Assembly: GCA_001950395.1 (NCBI GenBank)
Contig: BDLO01000001.1
Coordinates: 1,773,979-1,837,978, forward strand
Source of the DNA: Coriobacteriaceae bacterium EMTCatB1
GTDB lineage: Bacteria; Actinomycetota; Coriobacteriia; Anaerosomatales; Anaerosomataceae
Length of the DNA: 64,000 nt
Direction: 5' to 3'
Below the pieces are notes generated by a model. The model saw nothing but the letters and a program-made list of their open reading frames with translations, did no database searches and was not told where the DNA came from. The first letter of the stretch is position 1, and each line of letters opens with the position of its first letter. Both the position numbers and the translations under genes were made by a program. This document shows, one piece after another, positions 2 through 14,923 of the stretch.

Positions 2-625
2 CAGACCGCCCTGAACGTGCTCGGCTTCCCGTGCGGCGAGATCGACGGGATCTTCGGTCCGAGCACGGAACAAGCGGTGCGTGAGTTCCAATTCAACGTC
101 GGGCTGCCGGCAGACGGCGTCGCCGGCGACGAGACCCTCCGCGCGATCCAGCGGCTGCGCCACGCTTGGCAGGGCAGAGACCCCGCCGTGCCGACCGAGC
201 TCAGGCGCGCCTCTGTGGCTGCAGCGTCTGCGATGACGGGGCGTGCCGTGCGGTTCGAGTGGCGCGACCGCTCGCTTCGAGCGGTGTGCGAGCGCGCGGC
301 CAACCTCGTGCAGGCCATCACTGAGGGAGCGCGGGCGACCGCGGCGGAGCCGGAGGACCCGGACGAGGGCTTCGATGCGATCGTGGCGCTGGCGGCCGCT
401 GCGGGGGACGACAAAGGGCTGCCCGTGGCGCGGCTCGACCTGAGCGATGCGGCACGGTCTGCATCCAGGCTGACGATGGCGCTTGCGTCGGCGAGCCATC
501 GCCCCGCGCGCGTGATCGCTCTCGCCGACGAGCCTCGAAACGAAGAAGAGATGCAGCGCCTCGCCGTACTCGTGGTAGACGCGCTGGCCGCCGCGTTTGG
601 GAGAGCCGACCGCCCGGTGGTATAA
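2..625 (+). CDS. Peptidoglycan-binding domain protein, 5'-truncated
   Basis: The open frame runs in from the left edge, so the N-terminus is missing. A GTG at 17 could be read as a start but lies inside the domain. The first 45 or so visible residues match a PG_binding_1 fold: a GIFGPSTEQAVREFQ stretch followed by GLPADGVAGDETL. That family binds cell-wall peptidoglycan and is usually attached to a hydrolase. The remaining 150 or so residues are Ala-rich and I do not recognise them; an amidase-type catalytic domain could lie upstream of the window. The next gene is an NlpC/P60 endopeptidase, which supports a cell-wall role. The stop codon TAA lies inside the TATAAT of the next gene's promoter. 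Confidence 0.75.
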   Translation, partial: QTALNVLGFPCGEIDGIFGPSTEQAVREFQFNVGLPADGVAGDETLRAIQRLRHAWQGRDPAVPTELRRASVAAASAMTGRAVRFEWRDRSLRAVCERAANLVQAITEGARATAAEPEDPDEGFDAIVALAAAAGDDKGLPVARLDLSDAARSASRLTMALASASHRPARVIALADEPRNEEEMQRLAVLVVDALAAAFGRADRPVV

Positions 626-626
626 T
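597..626 (+). promoter_or_regulatory. Promoter for the NlpC/P60 gene
   Basis: TTGGGA (597-602) is followed after 18 bp by a perfect TATAAT (621-626). It overlaps the 3' end of the preceding gene. Transcription would start near 633, which leaves a leader of about 35 bases before the GTG start at 667. Confidence 0.6.
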
Positions 627-666
627 CTGCAGGTTGTTGCCGCATACCCGATGGTGGAGTCACGCA

Positions 667-1683
667 GTGTTGTCTTGCTCATACCGCTCTCGCTCGCTCG
701 TCGCGCTGCTCATAGTGCTCGTGGCTGCTTCCCGACCGATCGCGGCCACGGCTGCCCCTGCTGACTCGAAGCGTGCTCAGGCAGAGGCCGTTCGCGCGCA
801 GATCGCCGAGCTCGACGAGAAGATCGAGATCGCGTCTGAAGACTACAACGACGCTCAGATCGCGTACGCGTCGGTCACGGCGAAGCTCACCAAGACCGAG
901 CGGCGCCTGAAGGACCTTTCGTCGAAGCAGGAGTCACTCGAGAAGAGGCTGAGCGTGCGTGCGCAAGAGATGTACCGGAAGGGACCGCTCGGCACCCTCG
1001 ACCTCCTGTTCGGCGCGACCACGTTCGAGGAGTTCGTCACGGCGTGGGACCTGCTCAAGTCGATGAACCAGCAGGACGCCGACGCCGTTGCAGCAATCAA
1101 AGCGACGAGAGCGGAGGTTTCAAAGGCCCGTGCGGAGCTGAAGCGCCAGCAGGCGGAGGCCAAGAAGCAGCGCGACCTCATGCTCGCTCGCAAACGCACC
1201 ATCGAGCATCAGCTTGCGGAGCGCAAACGTCGGCTTGCGGGCCTGGAAGACGAGATCGCGCGGCTCGAGGCGGAGGAGCGCGAGCGGGAGCGACGGGCGT
1301 GGACGCCCCCGCCCGACCTCGGCGACCCCGTCCGTGCACCGCGAGGGTCGGTCGTGCAGATCGCGCTCAGCAAGCTCGGGACGCCGTACCGGTGGGGCGC
1401 ATCAGGTCCTGACGCGTTCGACTGCAGCGGCTTCACGATGTGGGTGTACGCGCAAGTCGGCGTGAGCCTGCCGCACAGTTCGCGGGCGCAGTACGACTGC
1501 GGGGAGCGGGTGTCGCGTGCGAACCTGAGGCCCGGCGACTTGGTCTTCTTCGGGCGTAGCAGGATCCACCACGTCGGCATCTACATCGGTGGCAACCGCT
1601 ACGTCCACGCACCGCACACAGGCGACGTCGTGCGCATCTCCAGTCTCGACCGGGCCGACTACGTGGGCGCGTGTCGTCCATGA
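667..1683 (+). CDS. Secreted NlpC/P60 peptidoglycan endopeptidase with coiled-coil N-terminus
   Basis: This 338-aa protein likely cleaves peptide stems of peptidoglycan outside the cell. The start is a signal peptide (SRSLVALLIVLVAASRPIAA). A long charged coiled coil spans about residues 35-215 and resembles the PcsB/CwlO regulatory arm. The C-terminal NlpC/P60 domain has Cys253 in FDCSGF, His302 in HHVGIYIG and a third polar residue, His314, in YVHAP. I chose GTG 667 because GGTGGAG lies 7 bases upstream. A TTG at 634 is also in frame but would sit at the predicted transcription start. In related proteins the coiled coil holds the enzyme inactive until FtsEX or a similar partner engages it; that link is inference here. 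Confidence 0.88.
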   Translation: MLSCSYRSRSLVALLIVLVAASRPIAATAAPADSKRAQAEAVRAQIAELDEKIEIASEDYNDAQIAYASVTAKLTKTERRLKDLSSKQESLEKRLSVRAQEMYRKGPLGTLDLLFGATTFEEFVTAWDLLKSMNQQDADAVAAIKATRAEVSKARAELKRQQAEAKKQRDLMLARKRTIEHQLAERKRRLAGLEDEIARLEAEERERERRAWTPPPDLGDPVRAPRGSVVQIALSKLGTPYRWGASGPDAFDCSGFTMWVYAQVGVSLPHSSRAQYDCGERVSRANLRPGDLVFFGRSRIHHVGIYIGGNRYVHAPHTGDVVRISSLDRADYVGACRP

Positions 1684-1745
1684 TCTGCGCGCGGAGCTGG
1701 TGTATCTGAAGATGTGACGGGCCGGGGGGCTTGGAGGGGGCTGGA

Positions 1746-2960
1746 ATGGGCGTTCTTGGTCCGCTGAGGAACCGCGAGTACCGCAAGCTTTGGTTCGCTC
1801 AGCTCGTGTCGGTTCTCGGCGACAAGATCCATCAGATCGCCGCGAGCATCCTGGTCTACAAGATAACGGGCTCGCTCGTGCACGTCGGCGCGATGCTTGC
1901 GGTTACGACGCTGCCCGCGGTCCTGTTCGGCATCCCGGCAGGGGCGGCCGTCGACCGTGCGGAGCGGAAGCGCGTCATGGTCACGGCCGACGTAGTGAGG
2001 GCAGCGCTTGTCCTCGCCATCCCGATCCTCGCCGAGCACGGTATAGGGTTCTTCTATGCGGCGGCGTTTCTCGTCGCCACCGCCTCGCTGTTCTTCGAAC
2101 CGGCGCGCTTCTCGCTCATCCCAGACCTGGTTCCAGAAGAGGAGCTCACTGCCGCGAACTCGCTCGACCAAGCCAGCATCGCCGTGTCTGAGATCGCAGG
2201 GCTCGCCATAGGAGCCGGTCTCGTGGCTGGCCTTGGCACCTTCGACGCCTTCGTCGTTGACGCCGCGAGCTTCGTCGTGTCGGCTCTCGTGATCGCGCGG
2301 ATGGCCGTCCCGGCTCGCAGCGAGGTCGCCGGCGGAGCAGAGGAAGCGCCCCCGTTCGCGGCTCAGATCGCAGAAGGCGTCCGTACGATCCGCGAGCACT
2401 CGATCATCAGCGCCCTCACGGCCACGTACGCTGCCGCAGCGCTGCCGATGGCGGCGGCCAATGCCGCCATGCAGGGACTGGCGCTCGTCCGGTTCGGGCG
2501 CGGGCCCATCGACGGTCGAGCGGTGGGACTCGCTGCTATCGATGCAGCTGTCACCGTCGGGCTGCTCGCGGGGAGCGTCACCGTCGGCCAGAGCGGCAAC
2601 AGCCGCTCCGGTCGCAAGTACGTGATCGCATTGGCGGCAGCGGGTGTGTTCCTGGTCGGCACGGCCAGCGCGAGCAGCATCGTCATGGCCTTGCCGTTCG
2701 TCTTCCTGGTAGGGGTCGCGAACATGTGGTTCTACGTCCCAGCCAGGTCCATCCTGCAGATCCACGCCCCGAGCACTCATCTCGGCAGGATATACGCGGT
2801 GTGGCGTACGCTCACGCACGCGATGCTGGCTGCGGGGTACGCGGTAGCAGGCTTCCTCGCGCAGCGGTTCGGCCCATCGACGACGCTCGTCTGCCTCGGC
2901 TGCGGGATGCTGGGCATCTCCGCGTATGGCTGGAGTCGCGCATCTCTGCGGGAAGCATGA
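1746..2960 (+). CDS. MFS transporter (MFS_3/EntS-like)
   Basis: A 404-aa integral membrane protein with about 12 hydrophobic segments. It starts MGVLGPLRNREYRKLWFAQ, the opening typical of MFS_3 exporters. The loop between helices 2 and 3 carries GAAVDRAERKRVM, a variant of the MFS motif-A GxxxDRxxRRR signature. Such proteins export siderophores, drugs or metabolites using the proton gradient; the substrate cannot be told from sequence. ATG 1746 is preferred over the in-frame TTG 1731 because GGAGGGGG ends 5 bases before it. It stands between a cell-wall hydrolase and pilT with no clear operon partner. Confidence 0.85.
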   Translation: MGVLGPLRNREYRKLWFAQLVSVLGDKIHQIAASILVYKITGSLVHVGAMLAVTTLPAVLFGIPAGAAVDRAERKRVMVTADVVRAALVLAIPILAEHGIGFFYAAAFLVATASLFFEPARFSLIPDLVPEEELTAANSLDQASIAVSEIAGLAIGAGLVAGLGTFDAFVVDAASFVVSALVIARMAVPARSEVAGGAEEAPPFAAQIAEGVRTIREHSIISALTATYAAAALPMAAANAAMQGLALVRFGRGPIDGRAVGLAAIDAAVTVGLLAGSVTVGQSGNSRSGRKYVIALAAAGVFLVGTASASSIVMALPFVFLVGVANMWFYVPARSILQIHAPSTHLGRIYAVWRTLTHAMLAAGYAVAGFLAQRFGPSTTLVCLGCGMLGISAYGWSRASLREA

Positions 2961-3033
2961 CCCTGCACTCGGCGTCTCGAACGCGGTATGCTTCGTAGGT
3001 ACGCAGTCGACGGCGCTTGCGTGGTGAGGGCTC

Positions 3034-4137
3034 ATGGCGGAGATCGACGCACTCCTGAAACTCATGGCCGACCGAGGGAGCTCGGACCTGCATATCAAGG
3101 TCGGCAGTCCTCCAGCGATTCGCCTGAACGGAAAGCTCGTCGTCCTGCGCGAGCTCCCGGTGCTCACGCCAGAGGCGACTAAGGCGCTCGCGCTCGGCAT
3201 GATGGACGAACGGCAGCGGCAGTCGTTCGAGAACCACAGAGAGGCCGACTTCGCGTACTCGGTGCGCGGGGTCGGGCGCTTCCGCGTCAACGTCTTCTAT
3301 CAGCGTGGCAGCGTCGGCATGACGCTTCGCCGTGTGACGACCGAGCGCGCCTCGATCGAGGAGCTGGGCCTGCCTCCGGTGGTGCGGCGTCTTGCCGATG
3401 AGCCGCGCGGCCTCGTGCTGGTGACCGGCACTGCCGGCTCCGGCAAGACGACGACGCTCGCGGCGATGATCGACCACATCAACCACACACGCGAGGGGCA
3501 CATCATCACGATCGAGGATCCGATCGAGGTCTTGCACGAGGACGACAAGTGCATCATCAACCAGCGCGAGATCGGGATCGACACCGAGAGCTACGCGGAT
3601 GCGCTGAGGCACGTGGTCAGGCAAGACCCTGACGTGATCCTGATCGGCGAGATGCGCGACCACGAGACCGTCTCCGCGGCGCTCACGGCCGCCGAGATCG
3701 GCAACCTCGTGCTTTCGACGCTCCACACCATCGACGCGACCGAGACCATCAACCGCATCATCGACTTCTTCCCGCCGTATCAGCAGAAGCAGATCCGCCT
3801 CATGCTCGCGTCGACGCTCAAGGGCATCATCTCGCTGCGGCTCATCCCATCGATCAACGGCGGTCTCGTGCCCGCCGTCGAGGTGCTGGTGATGACGGGC
3901 ACCATCCGTGAGTACATCATCGACCCGGACAAGACCTACCTCATCCGGGATGCTATGGAAGACGGCGAATACTACGGCATGCAGACCTTCGACAAGAGCC
4001 TGCTCACGCTCTACCAGCAGGGAAAGATAACGCTCGACGACGCGACGGCCATGGCGGCCAACGCCCACGACTTCAAGATCAAGGTCCGGCAGCTCGGCAT
4101 CACGCCGCAGCAAGCCGCCGAGACCGGCATCTACTGA
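3034..4137 (+). CDS. pilT: Type IV pilus retraction ATPase PilT
   Basis: A 367-aa hexameric secretion-family ATPase that in other bacteria depolymerises type IV pili at the cytoplasmic face of the inner membrane. Walker A is GTAGSGKTT at residues 132-140 (Lys138). The Walker B/Asp-box region is DVILIGEMRD at 200-209, and the His box contains STLHTIDA. Length and the AIRLNGKL-type N-terminal domain fit PilT rather than the larger PilB. GGTGAGGG precedes the ATG. No other pilus gene lies in the window, so pilin, PilB and PilC would have to be elsewhere. The family assignment is firm. A twitching role is inferred. Confidence 0.93.
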   Translation: MAEIDALLKLMADRGSSDLHIKVGSPPAIRLNGKLVVLRELPVLTPEATKALALGMMDERQRQSFENHREADFAYSVRGVGRFRVNVFYQRGSVGMTLRRVTTERASIEELGLPPVVRRLADEPRGLVLVTGTAGSGKTTTLAAMIDHINHTREGHIITIEDPIEVLHEDDKCIINQREIGIDTESYADALRHVVRQDPDVILIGEMRDHETVSAALTAAEIGNLVLSTLHTIDATETINRIIDFFPPYQQKQIRLMLASTLKGIISLRLIPSINGGLVPAVEVLVMTGTIREYIIDPDKTYLIRDAMEDGEYYGMQTFDKSLLTLYQQGKITLDDATAMAANAHDFKIKVRQLGITPQQAAETGIY

Positions 4138-4305
4138 CGGCGCGCTTCGCGGGAACGCAGATGATGTCGCGTCCTTCTACGGTTGCAGGTCCAACGCCAC
4201 GCCTGCACGCTGCCACAACGGGCCCCACTACGCGCAGCAGTATCTTGTGCGCGACTGCCGGCGTTTTCCCTGTGGAAGGCAACGTGGCGGCCTGCGGGAG
4301 CCACG

Positions 4306-4866
4306 GTGCAGCAGATGGACGTTGAGAGACTCATCCGCAGGGCGCAGCAGGGCGACTCCCGAGCGTTCGCGCGGCTGTACGATCTGTTCTTCGACCGTGT
4401 CTTCGGATTCGTGCGTGCGCGTGTGAGCGATGTCGAGGACGCGAAGGACCTGACGGCGACCGTCTTCATGCGGGCATGGGAGGCGCTTCCCGCGTACGAC
4501 GTGCGCGGCGTGCCGTTCGCCGCGTGGCTCTTCCGGATCGCGCGCAACGCCATCATCGACGAGTACCGGCGTGCGTCTCGCGAGCCGCAGAGGGTGCACG
4601 AAGAGGACGCCGAGGCCGTTGCGGATCCGCAGAGCCTGGATGAGACGGTCATCGCGCTCAGCGATGCGCAGCGGGTGCGCGAAGCGCTGCGAGGACTGAC
4701 AGAGGAGCAGGCGGCGGTGATCGTGCTGCGCTTCTTGTGGGACCTGCCGATCGCGGAGGTGGCCGACGCGCTCGGCAAGACGGAGGGCGCAGTCAAGGCT
4801 ATGCAGCACAGGGCCGTGCGCATGCTGGCGAAGCGGCTGGCGGAGATGGCAGATGACGCATCGTGA
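4306..4866 (+). CDS. ECF-type RNA polymerase sigma factor
   Basis: A protein of about 186 aa with sigma-70 region 2 (LYDLFFDRVFGFV through FAAWLFRIARNAIIDEYRR) and region 4 (LTEEQAAVIVLRFLWDLPIAEVADALGKTEGAVKAMQHRA). It lacks regions 1 and 3, as in ECF factors. GTG 4306 lies 5 bases after GGGAG; ATG 4315 is the alternative. The open frame extends further upstream, but that part is not sigma-like. Its 3' end overlaps the next gene by 14 bp. The downstream DUF5667-like membrane protein suggests the actinobacterial ECF/DUF5667 pairing, where the partner may act as an unconventional anti-sigma factor. That pairing is inferred from context. Confidence 0.88.
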   Translation: MQQMDVERLIRRAQQGDSRAFARLYDLFFDRVFGFVRARVSDVEDAKDLTATVFMRAWEALPAYDVRGVPFAAWLFRIARNAIIDEYRRASREPQRVHEEDAEAVADPQSLDETVIALSDAQRVREALRGLTEEQAAVIVLRFLWDLPIAEVADALGKTEGAVKAMQHRAVRMLAKRLAEMADDAS

Positions 4867-5653
4867 TCATATAGAGAGCGGGGATTCCGTCGTCAGGCGG
4901 GCGGTATCGGTCGCACTGACTGAAGGCGCAGACGAGGCGCGCCGCTCGATCAGGTCTGCGGTGCTCGATGCTGCGCGTTCTGATGCGCGCTGGATGCCTT
5001 TCGGGAGGCTCTCGCGACGCGCGGCGGCAGCGCTCGTGGCTGTGACGCTCGTCGGCAGCGGCGCAAGCGCCGCGGTTGCAGCGGCGCGACCCGGAAGCGC
5101 CGCCTACGTGCTCAAGCGCGCTGCGGAGCGTCTCGCTCTCGAAGTCGTTCCGAGCGGCGCGTTCGAGGATGCCTTGCAGGCCCATTTCGCGGAGCGTCGC
5201 GCTGCAGAGATGCGCGAGCTGCTTCGAAGCGGCCTTGACGAGCAGGCGCTGCAGCGGGCGCTCGACAGCATGGGCGTCTCGGCCGGGCAATCCGAGGGCG
5301 GTCAAGGAAGCGCCGAAGACGCGCTCAAACGCGAGCTTGAGCAGCTCGAGGGCGGTTCTGGCGCTCAGCCTAGCCAAGACATGTCGGGTGGCGGACGAGC
5401 GGGCATCGGAGCCCCAAGCCCTGGCCCCGTCGACTCGTCGGCGTCGGGCGGCGGCTCGTCGGGCGGCGGCTCGTCGGGCGGTGGCTCTCGCGATGGTGCT
5501 GCTCCTCAGTCCCCGTCTGGCGGGAGCTCGCAGCGGGAGCGATCCCCAGACTCGTCAGCCGGTCCCGGAACGAGCGGTTCGACCGACGCTACCGGCGGCG
5601 CTCCCCAGCAACAGGGGCCGAGCGGAGCCGGAGGCTCACGGCGGCAGCCCTGA
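4853..5653 (+). CDS. DUF5667-like membrane protein, putative partner of the ECF sigma factor
   Basis: A 266-aa protein with one transmembrane segment near residues 45-75 (RRAAAALVAVTLVGSGASAA). It is followed by a PGSAAYVLKRAAERL stretch and a helical AHFAERRAAEM region, as in DUF5667 proteins encoded beside ECF sigma genes. The last 100 or so residues are low-complexity Gly/Ser/Pro, probably an extracytoplasmic tail. The start overlaps the sigma gene by 14 bp, so translation is likely coupled. No zinc-binding anti-sigma motif (HxxxCxxC) is present, so any anti-sigma activity would be of a different type. Function is not established. Confidence 0.7.
   Translation: MTHRDHIESGDSVVRRAVSVALTEGADEARRSIRSAVLDAARSDARWMPFGRLSRRAAAALVAVTLVGSGASAAVAAARPGSAAYVLKRAAERLALEVVPSGAFEDALQAHFAERRAAEMRELLRSGLDEQALQRALDSMGVSAGQSEGGQGSAEDALKRELEQLEGGSGAQPSQDMSGGGRAGIGAPSPGPVDSSASGGGSSGGGSSGGGSRDGAAPQSPSGGSSQRERSPDSSAGPGTSGSTDATGGAPQQQGPSGAGGSRRQP
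5444..5488 (+). repeat. Three tandem 15-bp repeats encoding Ser-Gly-Gly-Gly-Ser
   Basis: The unit TCGGGCGGCGGCTCG occurs at 5444-5458 and 5459-5473. A third copy at 5474-5488 has two substitutions. It codes for the Gly/Ser linker of the DUF5667-like protein and may vary in copy number between strains. Confidence 0.85.
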
Positions 5654-5754
5654 GACCTGGTTTCAACACACGCTCAACATCAAGTCCGTCACCCTGAGGG
5701 CTTCCTCGCCGTTTTCCGTGATGAACGCCGGATACGACGAGGAGGTGAGCGCAG

Positions 5755-6258
5755 ATGCGACGGACGAAGATCTTCGCAGCACTGGTGGCGGCAGTCGCTC
5801 TGGCATTGCTCGCATCGGCGCCCGCGTGGGCAGGGCAAGGCGGCTCTGTCGGCGGTGGCGCCGGTTCTCAGCAGCATGAAGCCCGCTCGGGTTGGGACGT
5901 GGCTCCGCCCGCCGAGGATGCCCAGCTCGACCGAGACCGCGACTGCGTGCAGGACCGGACCCGGGACGGCTCGTGCCTTGAGTGCCCCGGCACGCCTCTG
6001 CAGACGCAGACGCGGGAAGGCGCTCAGGCTGGGAGCGGTGCTGACGACGCTGTCGAAGCGGCAGACGTGAGCGCATCGGTCGAAACCCCCATCCGTGCGC
6101 AAGTCCGCGAGCGGGTGAGGATCGAGAACCTCACCCGGGTCGAAAACCGGCTTCGCGTCCTCGACGGAGTGCGCGGAGGCGATGGTGACACGGTCGGTCT
6201 GGTGAGGGCCGCGCTCAAGCTCATGGAGCGGCTGAGGGCCTGGCTAGGAACGCTGTGA
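5755..6258 (+). CDS. Secreted protein of unknown function
   Basis: A 167-aa protein with a clear signal peptide (MRRTKIFAALVAAVALALLA, cleavage after APAWA). The mature part is acidic, Gly-rich and charged, with two cysteines in DGSCLECPG and a helical Arg-rich C-terminus (VRERVRIENLTRVENRLRVL). I recognise no domain. GAGGAGGTG precedes ATG 5755. It lies 100 bp after the DUF5667-like gene in the same direction and ends at a strong terminator. It may be the last gene of the ECF operon or a target of that sigma factor. Confidence 0.7.
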   Translation: MRRTKIFAALVAAVALALLASAPAWAGQGGSVGGGAGSQQHEARSGWDVAPPAEDAQLDRDRDCVQDRTRDGSCLECPGTPLQTQTREGAQAGSGADDAVEAADVSASVETPIRAQVRERVRIENLTRVENRLRVLDGVRGGDGDTVGLVRAALKLMERLRAWLGTL

Positions 6259-10827: not shown

Positions 10828-11163
10828 TCAGGTTGTCTGCTCGATCTTGGACTGGATGGCGCGCAGTATGCCGGGATACGACACCGCGCCCTCGTACATG
10901 GGTTCGCCGTCGATGACCGTGACTGGGTAGATCCAGCCGTTCTCCTTGATCGTGGCGATCATCTCGCCGTGCTGCTCTTGGACCTCAGGGCGTGTGGTGT
11001 CGAGGTAGACGACGCGCGCCAGGTCCCCGAAGCGCGTCCGCACCTCGGAGCTTACTATCTCGGTGATCTCCGCCGGAGTCCACGAGGGACCTCAACCGCC
11101 AGAGAAGCACTCCGTCTCCACTGGGAAGTCGTAGACTTCCACGGTCACGATCGGGTTCGCCAT
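10828..11163 (-). CDS. Probable selenoprotein: thioredoxin-fold protein with in-frame UGA (CX4U)
   Basis: The 112-codon frame runs from ATG 11163 to a TGA at 10828-10830. It is interrupted only by TGA at codon 24 (11092-11094). Reading that codon as selenocysteine gives a 111-aa protein with ECFSGG-U-GPSWTP, a CX4U redox motif directly after beta strand 1. The rest fits a thioredoxin fold: a helix, strand ARVVYLDT, a helix, a probable cis-proline strand YPVTVIDGEPMYEGAV, and a last helix. The stretch after the UGA has no start codon or SD that would make it a separate gene of sensible length. GAGGAGAG precedes the ATG. It lies 11 bp behind a ferredoxin gene. A nonsense mutation or two truncated products are the alternatives. 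The fold recalls YuzD-type proteins, but I cannot name the family. Confidence 0.75.
11063..11083 (-). promoter_or_regulatory. Putative bacterial SECIS element
   Basis: On the minus strand, 17 bases separate the UGA from a GGC apical loop (11074-11072). The stem is CTCC/GGAG at the top, then GA/TC and GT/AC below, with one bulged base on each side. A stem just 3' of the UGA, a G in the first two loop positions and a UGA-to-loop distance of about 16-37 bases are what is known of bacterial SECIS elements read by SelB. Confidence 0.6.
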
Positions 11164-11174
11164 GATGTCTCTCC

Positions 11175-11378
11175 TCACGCTGGCGCGACGGCGCCGGTCG
11201 GGCACACACGGGCGCAGATGCCGCAGCCGGAGCAGCGGCTCGCGTCGACCTCGTAGCCATTGTAACCCGGGTATGGCCCTCCTGGCCGCGGCACGATCGC
11301 TCCCTTCGGGCACACCCTCCGAGCCGGGCACGCAGGCGAACGGTCGCACACGTTCGCGTCGACTGAGTACGTCAGCAT
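11175..11378 (-). CDS. 4Fe-4S ferredoxin-type protein
   Basis: A 67-aa iron-sulfur protein. The C-terminal half has the standard motif C49-S-G-C52-G-I-C55-A-R-V-C59-P. The N-terminal half has three cysteines with unusual spacing (Cys11, Cys17, Cys23-Pro) instead of CxxCxxC. It may bind one typical and one atypical cluster, or a single [4Fe-4S] cluster. ATG 11378 is preceded by GAGGAGG. It is the first gene of a two-gene unit with the probable selenoprotein, which suggests the two exchange electrons (inference). A palindromic operator-like site lies just upstream. Confidence 0.85.
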   Translation of the reverse strand: MLTYSVDANVCDRSPACPARRVCPKGAIVPRPGGPYPGYNGYEVDASRCSGCGICARVCPTGAVAPA

Positions 11379-11411: not shown

Positions 11412-11439
11412 AGTATACCCACCCGGGTATACCACGCAA
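11412..11439 (-). promoter_or_regulatory. Promoter with overlapping palindromic operator for the ferredoxin-selenoprotein pair
   Basis: On the minus strand, TTGCGT (11439-11434) is followed after 16 bp by TATACT (11417-11412). Within it, GTATACCC-ACCC-GGGTATAC (11413-11432) is a perfect 8-bp inverted repeat with a 4-base spacer that covers the -10 box. The AT-flanked C-tract/G-tract form resembles operators of the CsoR/CstR repressor family (copper or persulfide sensors); that likeness is inference. Confidence 0.6.
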
Positions 11440-12782: not shown

Positions 12783-12859
12783 AGAGCGCATGCAGCGGCG
12801 TGAGGGGCCGCTTAGCGTGCGTGGACGCTGAAATCCGGGACGAGCGAGGAGAGATGCGT

Positions 12860-14923
12860 ATGGCGAAGATCTCTTTGGCCGGGTTCAAAGATCCGGTCAG
12901 ACGACCACGGTACGTGATTTGGACGGGGGTCGTCGTCCTGGCGCTTGCGGCGTTCATCATCATCGCGTTCGGCGCGACGTCGACTTACTGGTTCTGCGCG
13001 AGCGTGTGCCACAAGGTGCAGGACGATTCCATCGCTGCGTACAACCGCTCGTCCCACAGCATGGTTTCGTGCATGTCGTGTCACGAGCCAGTCAACTCGG
13101 ATCCCATCACCTTCACGCTGAAGAAGGCCAAGGCGCTCGGCGAACTCGTCCTGACCGTGACGAATAAGTTCGAGCTTCCGCTGAACGCTGAGAGCCATCT
13201 CGCGATGAACACGGAGGAGATGGGCTCGCGTCAGTGCACGCAGTGCCACAACCTGAAGACGCGGAAGATCACCCCCGGCCCGGGCATCAAGATCGACCAC
13301 GATGCGCACGAGAAGAAGGATATCCACTGCACCGCATGCCACAACCGCGTCGCGCACAACGAGAGCGGCGACTGGGAGCCGACGCTCGTCGATCCGCAGA
13401 CCAAGAAGAAGAGCGTCAAGCACCAGAACTTCATGTCGATGACCGCGTGCTTCCGCTGCCACACGCTCACCTCTGAGCCCCCGGCGGGCGGCATCAAGGC
13501 CCCCGGCAAGTGCTCGGCGTGCCATCCCGCGGACTTCGACTTGAAACCGCCTTCGCACAAGGAGAAGGACTTCTATCCGAAGGGCCACGCGAAGCTCGCG
13601 GTCGCGAAGGTGGATCGCTCCACCGGCAAGCCGGTGGTGAGCGAGGGCGCGTCCGAGGGCGAAGAAGCGGCTGAGGGCACTGAGGCTGAGAAGGAGGGCG
13701 AGGCCGCCGAGGGCGAAGGCCTGCACCTCGTCGCGGTCGACAAGGTGGACTACTGCGCCACGTGTCACGTGAAGGCGACCTTCTGCATGGGCTGCCACGG
13801 CATGGAGATGCCGCACCCGGCTGAGTTCAAGGAGAAGACGCACCCCGAGGTCGCCAAGACCAAGATGGACAAGTGCGACATGTGCCACCAGGTCAAGAAG
13901 ACGAACTACCAGTTCTGCAACGAGTGCCACCACGGCACCAAGGTCAACTGGAAGTTCGATCCGAAGGTGGCCTGGCAGACGCAGCACGCGAAGGCCGTCA
14001 CCACGAACGGCGTCAGCGCGTGCCTCGGCGCGTGCCACGAGCAGAAGTTCTGCGTGGAGTGCCACACCAAGCTCAAGCCGCTGCCGACGTCTCACAAGGA
14101 CGCGAAGTGGCTGCGTGACAAGCTGACCGTGACGAAGTACGGCTCTGCCGCCGCTCAGCCTTCCGGCAAGCACGCGCTCGCCGCTCTCAAGGCGATTGAC
14201 AGCTGCGACGTGTGCCATGGCCCGGGCGGCACGAACGCCACGTTCTGCAAGGGCTGCCATGGCATGGAGATGCCGCACCCAGACACGTTCAAGAAGAACC
14301 ACGTGTCTGGTCGCAAGACGCCGCAGCTGTGCGCGAACTGCCACACCTTCAAGGAGGTCTGCTCCGACTGCCACCACGTAGATGCCGTCAACGGCGTGCC
14401 GTGGCAGAAGCAGCACCCGAAGGCCGTGGCGGCGAAGGGCACTGCTCCGTGCTTCGAGAAGTGTCACGAGAACAAGCAGTTCTGCGTGGACTGCCACACG
14501 AAGCTGAAGGCGTTGCCGGCGTCGCACAAGGCGTCTGACTGGACGCGCAACCTGGCGCTCGGCAAGTCAGCGAAGCACTCGGCGGCATACAAGGCCCAGC
14601 CGGACAGCTGCGATTATTGCCACGGCACCGGCGGCACCGACGCGAAGTTCTGCAAGGGCTGCCACAAGCTGCCGATGCCGCACCCGGCGAACTTCAAGGA
14701 CACCCACAAGGCCGATTTCCAGGCCAAGAAGCTCACCAAGCCGGTGTGCGAGAACTGCCACAACCAGTACTTCTGCGACAACTGCCATCACAAGGGTGCG
14801 GTCGCGAACCAGGCGTGGCGGACGTACCACCCGAACATCGTCAAGAAGAACGGCGCCGAGCCGTGCTTCGAGTGCCACAAGCCCACATACTGCTCGTACT
14901 GCCACGTGCGGCTGATCCACTAG
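12860..14923 (+). CDS. Membrane-anchored multiheme c-type cytochrome, 24 potential heme sites
   Basis: A 687-aa protein with one N-terminal anchor helix (VIWTGVVVLALAAFIIIAF). The first heme region resembles NapC/NirT/NrfH quinol dehydrogenases. I count 21 CxxCH motifs and three CX3CH motifs (C46ASVCH, CLGACH, CFEKCH). The first six are spread over residues 46-240; an acidic Glu/Ala linker follows at about 265-290. The remaining 18 lie in three homologous blocks that begin at residues 299, 449 and 584. It probably moves electrons from the quinone pool into the periplasm or to the cell surface. ATG 12860 is chosen because GAGGAG lies 8 bases upstream; ATG 12854 is too close. A strong terminator follows. 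The terminal acceptor is unknown. Confidence 0.9.
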   Translation: MAKISLAGFKDPVRRPRYVIWTGVVVLALAAFIIIAFGATSTYWFCASVCHKVQDDSIAAYNRSSHSMVSCMSCHEPVNSDPITFTLKKAKALGELVLTVTNKFELPLNAESHLAMNTEEMGSRQCTQCHNLKTRKITPGPGIKIDHDAHEKKDIHCTACHNRVAHNESGDWEPTLVDPQTKKKSVKHQNFMSMTACFRCHTLTSEPPAGGIKAPGKCSACHPADFDLKPPSHKEKDFYPKGHAKLAVAKVDRSTGKPVVSEGASEGEEAAEGTEAEKEGEAAEGEGLHLVAVDKVDYCATCHVKATFCMGCHGMEMPHPAEFKEKTHPEVAKTKMDKCDMCHQVKKTNYQFCNECHHGTKVNWKFDPKVAWQTQHAKAVTTNGVSACLGACHEQKFCVECHTKLKPLPTSHKDAKWLRDKLTVTKYGSAAAQPSGKHALAALKAIDSCDVCHGPGGTNATFCKGCHGMEMPHPDTFKKNHVSGRKTPQLCANCHTFKEVCSDCHHVDAVNGVPWQKQHPKAVAAKGTAPCFEKCHENKQFCVDCHTKLKALPASHKASDWTRNLALGKSAKHSAAYKAQPDSCDYCHGTGGTDAKFCKGCHKLPMPHPANFKDTHKADFQAKKLTKPVCENCHNQYFCDNCHHKGAVANQAWRTYHPNIVKKNGAEPCFECHKPTYCSYCHVRLIH
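13754..14923 (+). repeat. Three tandem six-heme coding blocks in the cytochrome gene
   Basis: Blocks start at 13754, 14204 and 14609 (150, 135 and 104 codons). Each has the heme order C-C-C-C-C-C with shared text such as FCxGCHxxxMPHP, then a CHH motif, then EPCFE/APCFE-like and FCVxCHTKLKxLP segments. In blocks 1 and 2 the fifth site is CX3CH; in block 3 it is CxxCH. The pattern points to internal duplication. Confidence 0.85.

Follow-up and report, generated by a model that had tools for sequence, protein, structure and literature searches.

What does a reading frame encode when it is open from end to end but for a single UGA codon? The question is raised by a minus-strand frame in the stretch of the Coriobacteriaceae bacterium EMTCatB1 genome analysed here (64,000 nucleotides, hereafter the window, with a G+C content of 66.0%; positions are counted from its first letter). 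A first-pass annotation of the window had proposed that this frame encodes a selenoprotein with a thioredoxin fold, of a family that it could not name. The features of the locus are collected in Table 1.

Table 1. Coordinates of the features of the selenoprotein locus, and the operator places in the EMTCatB1 genome
Feature	Position	Strand	Basis or detail
Selenoprotein gene, DUF1462/ArsD-like thioredoxin fold	10828..11163	minus	111 codons plus stop; translation, PF07315 match, 61 homologues
Apical SECIS hairpin	11065..11081	minus	Stem +11..+17 with +21..+27, loop GGC +18..+20 (11074-11072) after UGA
UGA, the Sec24 codon	11092..11094	minus	Both UGA and C-x4-U conserved in 61/61 gene-holding genomes of the order
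Cys19 codon	11107-11109	minus
Shine-Dalgarno-like GAGGAG	11171..11176	minus	Overlaps stop of upstream gene; many homologues have a comparable site
Small ferredoxin-like gene, 67 aa	11175..11378	minus	Fer4 matches; ends 11 nt before selenoprotein start
Putative promoter	11412..11439	minus	-35 TTGCGT (11434-11439), -10 TATACT (11412-11417); predicted from consensus only
Operator ATACCC-N4-GGGTAT, CsoR-family type	11415..11430	minus	Between -35 and -10
Operator place 1			Thioredoxin promoter
Operator place 2			Divergent promoter, CDF transporter / genome's only CsoR-family repressor
Operator place 3			CcdA (CcdA-type thiol:disulfide membrane protein)
Operator place 4			Rhodanese with thioredoxin-like gene
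Operator place 5			Selenoprotein-ferredoxin operon

The in-frame UGA and its decoding

Translation of the frame (11163-10828) gives a product of 111 residues, MANPIVTVEVYDFPVETECFSGGUGPSWTPAEI...KIEQTT, that ends at a TGA stop and in which Cys19 and Sec24 form a C-x4-U motif. The single frame interrupted solely at codon 24, its coordinates and the Cys-x4-Sec context are thus as first annotated. A protein search found the gene in 61 of the 69 genomes of the order, with one TGA in the matched region of every copy (that of genome G037 has an additional TAG near its end). When these loci were read, C-x4-U was present in all 61 and the base after the UGA was invariably G; the longer motif Cys-x4-Sec-Gly-Pro-x-Trp is likewise retained, together with the TGA, in every holder. 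Two members of the class from outside the order also have the TGA.

This conservation, far stronger than chance would produce, bears directly on two simpler explanations. Were the codon really TGC or TGT, misread in sequencing, or the gene a decaying pseudogene, the identical TGA would not be expected to recur in 61 separately assembled genomes of the order, followed in each by a full-length conserved protein; because the TGA is kept in all of these and in most of the distant relatives too, sequencing error can be excluded, and with nothing found in its favour this explanation as a whole has a negligible probability. The second takes the UGA for a true stop, leaving a leader peptide of 23 amino acids and a separately initiated protein of 71 amino acids that starts from a GTG at 11043. 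A mechanically called open reading frame (10828-11043) does exist there, but few residues of the family are as well conserved as those that immediately follow the UGA, the UGA itself is unchanged across the 61 genomes and, as described below, frozen synonymous codons and compensatory base pairs fall exactly within the hairpin, all of which makes a true stop highly improbable.

The machinery that selenocysteine insertion calls for is encoded in the same genome, a single 1,838,614-base contig on which all four genes are present: tRNA-Sec (74.8 bits), selB (379 bits) with selA adjoining it (619 bits), and selD (373 bits). The selD gene contains an in-frame TGA (STKSG-TGA-AAKWGPGDL; L183 1400-1700, G000:C1:1713630-1714547) and so is a selenoprotein gene in its own right. 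About 6 kb after selB, a few kilobases from the selA-selB-tRNA-Sec cluster and near an IS110 transposase, this anaerobic actinobacterium also has an integron integrase (TIGR02249, 471 bits; L153 12656-13612, G000:C1).

Among the 61 genomes that hold the gene, strict cut-offs detect SelB in 48, tRNA-Sec in 49 and either or both in 53. The eight in which neither was detected are all draft assemblies, from which the two genes, being often adjacent, may both have dropped out. The gene, SelB and tRNA-Sec are absent together from one genome that is 99% complete (G029), and another (G010) has SelB and tRNA-Sec and lacks the selenoprotein gene. The tRNA-Sec model reaches its family cut-off in 25 of the 26 genomes searched for distant relatives; in G504, G750 and G485 it scores only 47-50 bits, near background.

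A SECIS-like stem with GG in its loop had been annotated as starting 17 bases past the UGA. The hairpin and the GG loop are borne out by comparison but the position is not: it is the loop that lies there (+18), while the stem starts at about +11. With the stem placed on each sequence by codon position (three bases further on for subfamilies with one extra codon), 98.6% of cells are paired across 42 distinct sequences, a value that all of 500 shuffles fell short of; sliding one partner against the other lowers it to 43-61%. The pairs change in a compensatory manner, the closing pair occurring as C-G, A-U, U-A or G-U and the first pair as G-C, U-A or wobble forms, and nearly all sequences have GGA or GGC in the loop at +18. 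Synonymous codons inside the hairpin are frozen, with serine encoded by UCU in 57 of 57 cases (UCU makes up 7% of the Ser codons in the rest of these genes) and proline by CCG in 60 of 61 (35% elsewhere), whilst the codons immediately before and after it vary freely. Folded alone, the 45 nt of the window sequence show no gain in stability over shuffles (z = 0.24), and the case for the hairpin therefore rests on comparative rather than thermodynamic evidence. On that evidence, the downstream mRNA hairpin probably aids recoding of UGA24.

Judged from sequence comparison, then, 10828-11163 is almost certainly a genuine selenoprotein gene whose UGA is read as selenocysteine. The earlier call of a probable selenoprotein is supported, and nothing was found of what it had named as contrary evidence.

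Fold, family and relatives

The protein matches the Pfam family DUF1462 (PF07315; E=2.9e-7, 31.2 bits against a gathering cut-off of 25) and has no family assignment in NCBIfam. Its best solved relative is Staphylococcus aureus SA0798 (PDB 1xg8; profile E=3e-4), and an ungapped extension of the reported alignment puts Sec24 in register with Cys22 of SA0798, the second cysteine of its CASC. An AlphaFold2 model built from 59 sequences predicts a thioredoxin fold (pLDDT 87.5, falling below 50 around residues 20-23; pTM 0.79) with the order beta-alpha-beta-alpha-beta-beta-alpha and a proline before strand 3; P80 is invariant. Strand 1 (residues 6-12) and the following helix (30-48) leave the Sec residue in the loop after the first strand, where it had been placed by the first reading of the sequence. 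The top match to the model is again 1xg8, both by Foldseek (E=8e-5) and by VIA-align (Z 9.4, rmsd 3.4 over 101 residues), and structures of ArsD rank close behind.

The likeness to ArsD extends to the site itself. In an hhalign comparison with an ArsD protein (probability 94.6%), VEVYDFPVETECFSGGUGPSWTP aligns with VKVYDPP--MCCSTGVCGPSVDP, so that within the site CFSGGUGPSWTP falls on ArsD CCSTGVCGPSVDP, Sec24 on Cys18 and Cys19 on Cys13. Searches of plasmids returned weak matches to ArsD and to nothing else (best E=0.02, residues 19-99), and the Pfam ArsD model (PF06953) gave no match up to E=1. DUF1462 and ArsD were both assigned earlier to the thioredoxin-like clan (PMC3091736). With the DUF1462 proteins B. 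subtilis YuzD and SA0798 the new protein shares its strand and helix order, but SA0798, at about 19% identity, has a CxxC (CASC) after strand 1 where C-x4-U is found here. With ArsD (PDB 3kgk, 3mwh) it shares a thioredoxin fold devoid of CxxC and a C-x4-C/U-Gly-Pro-Ser site after strand 1; unlike ArsD, it lacks the vicinal Cys12-Cys13 pair, having only the equivalents of Cys13 and Cys18 (Cys19 and Sec24), and its operon in EMTCatB1 is not an ars operon. The DUF1462 match and the ArsD site alignment together therefore describe a protein whose body resembles DUF1462 and whose site resembles that of ArsD, with selenocysteine in place of the last cysteine, and the family that could not at first be named can be assigned to the thioredoxin fold as a DUF1462/ArsD-like branch.

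When 396 genomes of the phylum were searched with a profile, distant subfamilies emerged, nearly all of which have TGA at the site (SCSGGUGPSWSLEE, SCGFGUGSYGLSQAE, ACRGGGUAPPLSLEE, CSGGGUGTVSWSRAE). Some have C-x3-U in place of C-x4-U, and one locus (L191) has no cysteine ahead of the Sec. The search for homologues with cysteine at the Sec position had a divided outcome: at a distance they exist, in the form of Cys22 of SA0798 and Cys18 of ArsD, but the close family yielded no convincing Cys form, the single candidate being weak (L194, E=0.008). A protein of G621 (locus L196) first taken for a Cys homologue was withdrawn, as it has its own in-frame UGA upstream (AGAGGUGPVCEPADC) followed by a hairpin. 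Two loci with no stop in the matched part (L188 and L189) also have a UGA just upstream, and the weak matches in G579 and G650 proved to be true ArsD proteins.

Operon, operator and putative regulon

The gene that precedes the selenoprotein gene encodes a ferredoxin-like protein with seven cysteines arranged as C-x5-C-x5-CP and C-x2-C-x2-C-x3-CP, the first of these cluster motifs being unusual. In 52 of the 61 relatives a homologue precedes the selenoprotein gene on the same strand at a distance of 6-45 nt, and from this order and spacing we infer that the two genes are co-transcribed. Elsewhere in the window (12800-14923, plus strand) is a gene for a large multihaem c-type cytochrome with many CxxCH motifs, which fits an Fe(III)-reducing lifestyle.

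Most of the operator lies in the 16-bp spacer of the putative promoter. A palindrome of the form TACCC-N-GGGTA is found in the promoter of 58 of the 61 relatives, with a TTG no more than 14 nt upstream in 55 of the 58, and where no ferredoxin gene was found the operator mostly adjoins the selenoprotein gene instead. In the EMTCatB1 genome TATACCC-N2-5-GGGTA occurs at five places (Table 1). The EMTCatB1 repressor retains both sensor cysteines and lacks the copper-ligand histidine. A CsoR-family repressor is encoded in 64 of the 69 genomes of the order; in the 30 regulators inspected both cysteines are kept and the copper-ligand histidine is replaced by serine or alanine, in 29 an operator precedes the aligned repressor segment by 126-140 nt, and in 26 of the 30 one is also found before a thioredoxin gene.

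Control of thioredoxin and sulfur genes by members of the CsoR family is known (PMC10318464). The selenoprotein operon, thioredoxin, CcdA, rhodanese and the CDF exporter very probably constitute one CsoR-family regulon, in which the repressor would bind each operator. The arrangement resembles the CstR and TTHA1953 regulons in its two-Cys CsoR-family repressor, palindromic operator and thioredoxin and rhodanese-type targets, but differs from them in having a selenoprotein-ferredoxin operon and a CDF exporter among its targets. The exporter is what lends weight to a different interpretation, that the regulator senses a metal (copper or another, as in CsoR, RcnR or DmeR) and governs metal efflux along with genes for thiol repair, not a response to reactive sulfur: the CDF transporter gene is divergent from that of the regulator, with an operator common to both. 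The Ser or Ala at the copper-ligand position alongside the two retained cysteines in 30 of 30 regulators argues against metal sensing, as does the resemblance of the rhodanese, thioredoxin and CcdA targets to those of sulfur-sensing CsoR-family regulons (PMC10318464), and we consider it somewhat unlikely.

The neighbours of distant relatives point to soft sulfur or metal(loid) chemistry. In family f54 the Sec gene comes directly after a thioredoxin gene (L187, L191), and in family f48 a ThiI/MnmA-like PP-loop protein is encoded next to it, as is a 2-thiouracil desulfurase in one genome. The divergent Sec relative at L196 (G621:C6, about 280-6111; GGUGPVCEPADCGP, its UGA followed by a hairpin) is inside an ars operon that encodes ArsD, an ArsR-like protein, ArsA twice, an SBF transporter and a methyltransferase-like protein.

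Proposed role and novelty

The locus as a whole is best explained, with a probability of roughly 0.8, as encoding a selenoprotein that is decoded by SelA, SelB, SelD and tRNA-Sec, shares an operon with a ferredoxin, belongs to a CsoR-family regulon and serves as a selenol-based stress reductase or carrier. UGA24 would be decoded by the genome's own machinery, helped by the mRNA hairpin just downstream. Sec24 might then attack a persulfide, a polysulfide or the thiol adduct of a soft metal(loid), Cys19 could resolve the product via a selenenylsulfide, and re-reduction would fall to thioredoxin or the ferredoxin partner, making the protein, on balance, a selenol-based reductase or carrier in (per)sulfide or metal(loid) stress. 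In S. aureus persulfides are reduced by thioredoxin-like proteins (PMC6196236). A selenol/thiol oxidoreductase in the response to reactive sulfur or metal(loids) is the likely role, with the caveat that the CDF exporter of the regulon would be compatible with a metal response as well; that the protein works as an oxidoreductase has about an even chance of being correct, and that it carries metal(loids) is possible but doubtful.

Carriage without redox catalysis would make the protein a Sec-containing chaperone of the ArsD type, in which Cys19 and Sec24 bind arsenite, antimonite, Cu, Zn or a similar soft metal(loid) and hand it on to a recipient such as the CDF exporter. The alignment of the site with CCSTGVCGPSVDP (94.6%) is in keeping with this, as are the best plasmid match, the ArsD structures among the top fold matches, the CDF exporter in the same regulon and the company that the distant relative at L196 keeps with ArsD, two copies of ArsA and an SBF-family transporter. 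The protein nevertheless lacks the ArsD-type vicinal cysteine pair, is not matched by the Pfam ArsD model and does not belong to an ars operon in EMTCatB1; cytosolic thioredoxin, CcdA and rhodanese in the regulon, and the recurrence of thioredoxin and ferredoxin neighbours, fit redox chemistry better. We therefore regard a chaperone as unlikely and a selenol-based oxidoreductase as the better fit to these neighbours. It is also possible, if unlikely, that the protein represents an undescribed superfamily of Actinomycetota selenoproteins in which the metalloid site of ArsD was rebuilt with Sec, tying selenium to a CsoR-family sulfur or metal(loid) stress response; Cys19 and Sec24 may in that case have a soft metal(loid), selenium or sulfane sulfur as their cargo, with the protein's own ferredoxin recharging it.

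None of the 119 prokaryotic selenoprotein families inventoried in 2026 is a DUF1462, ArsD or C-x4-U family (PMC13188914 Table 1). A literature search returned no paper joining DUF1462 or YuzD with a selenoprotein, and papers on ArsD and selenocysteine appear, by title and abstract, to include none on such a protein. As far as the papers searched go, the selenoprotein appears to belong to no catalogued family, although unlisted GenBank annotations are possible. The selenoproteins Trx, Grx, SaoT, Sec.1/Sec.2, HUIPC and UXX-star resemble it in having a thioredoxin fold, a redox Sec near the start of helix 1 and a bacterial SECIS, but have UxxC, CxxU, CxU, UxC or UxxT where it has C-x4-U. The protein is near-universal in this order of anaerobes and always in the Sec form, and selection has therefore maintained that form over a long period. 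Annotation that treats the UGA as a stop will truncate the gene in every genome, and the conserved operon and regulon give it a concrete, testable role.

The paralogue at L188 (G553:C19) reads VVYSTLPSG-UGA-SSSGAAGGCG and that at L189 (G443:C25) VVYTTVPSG-UGA-RSCISASG, and these two are candidates for a possible second unlisted type of thioredoxin-like selenoprotein.
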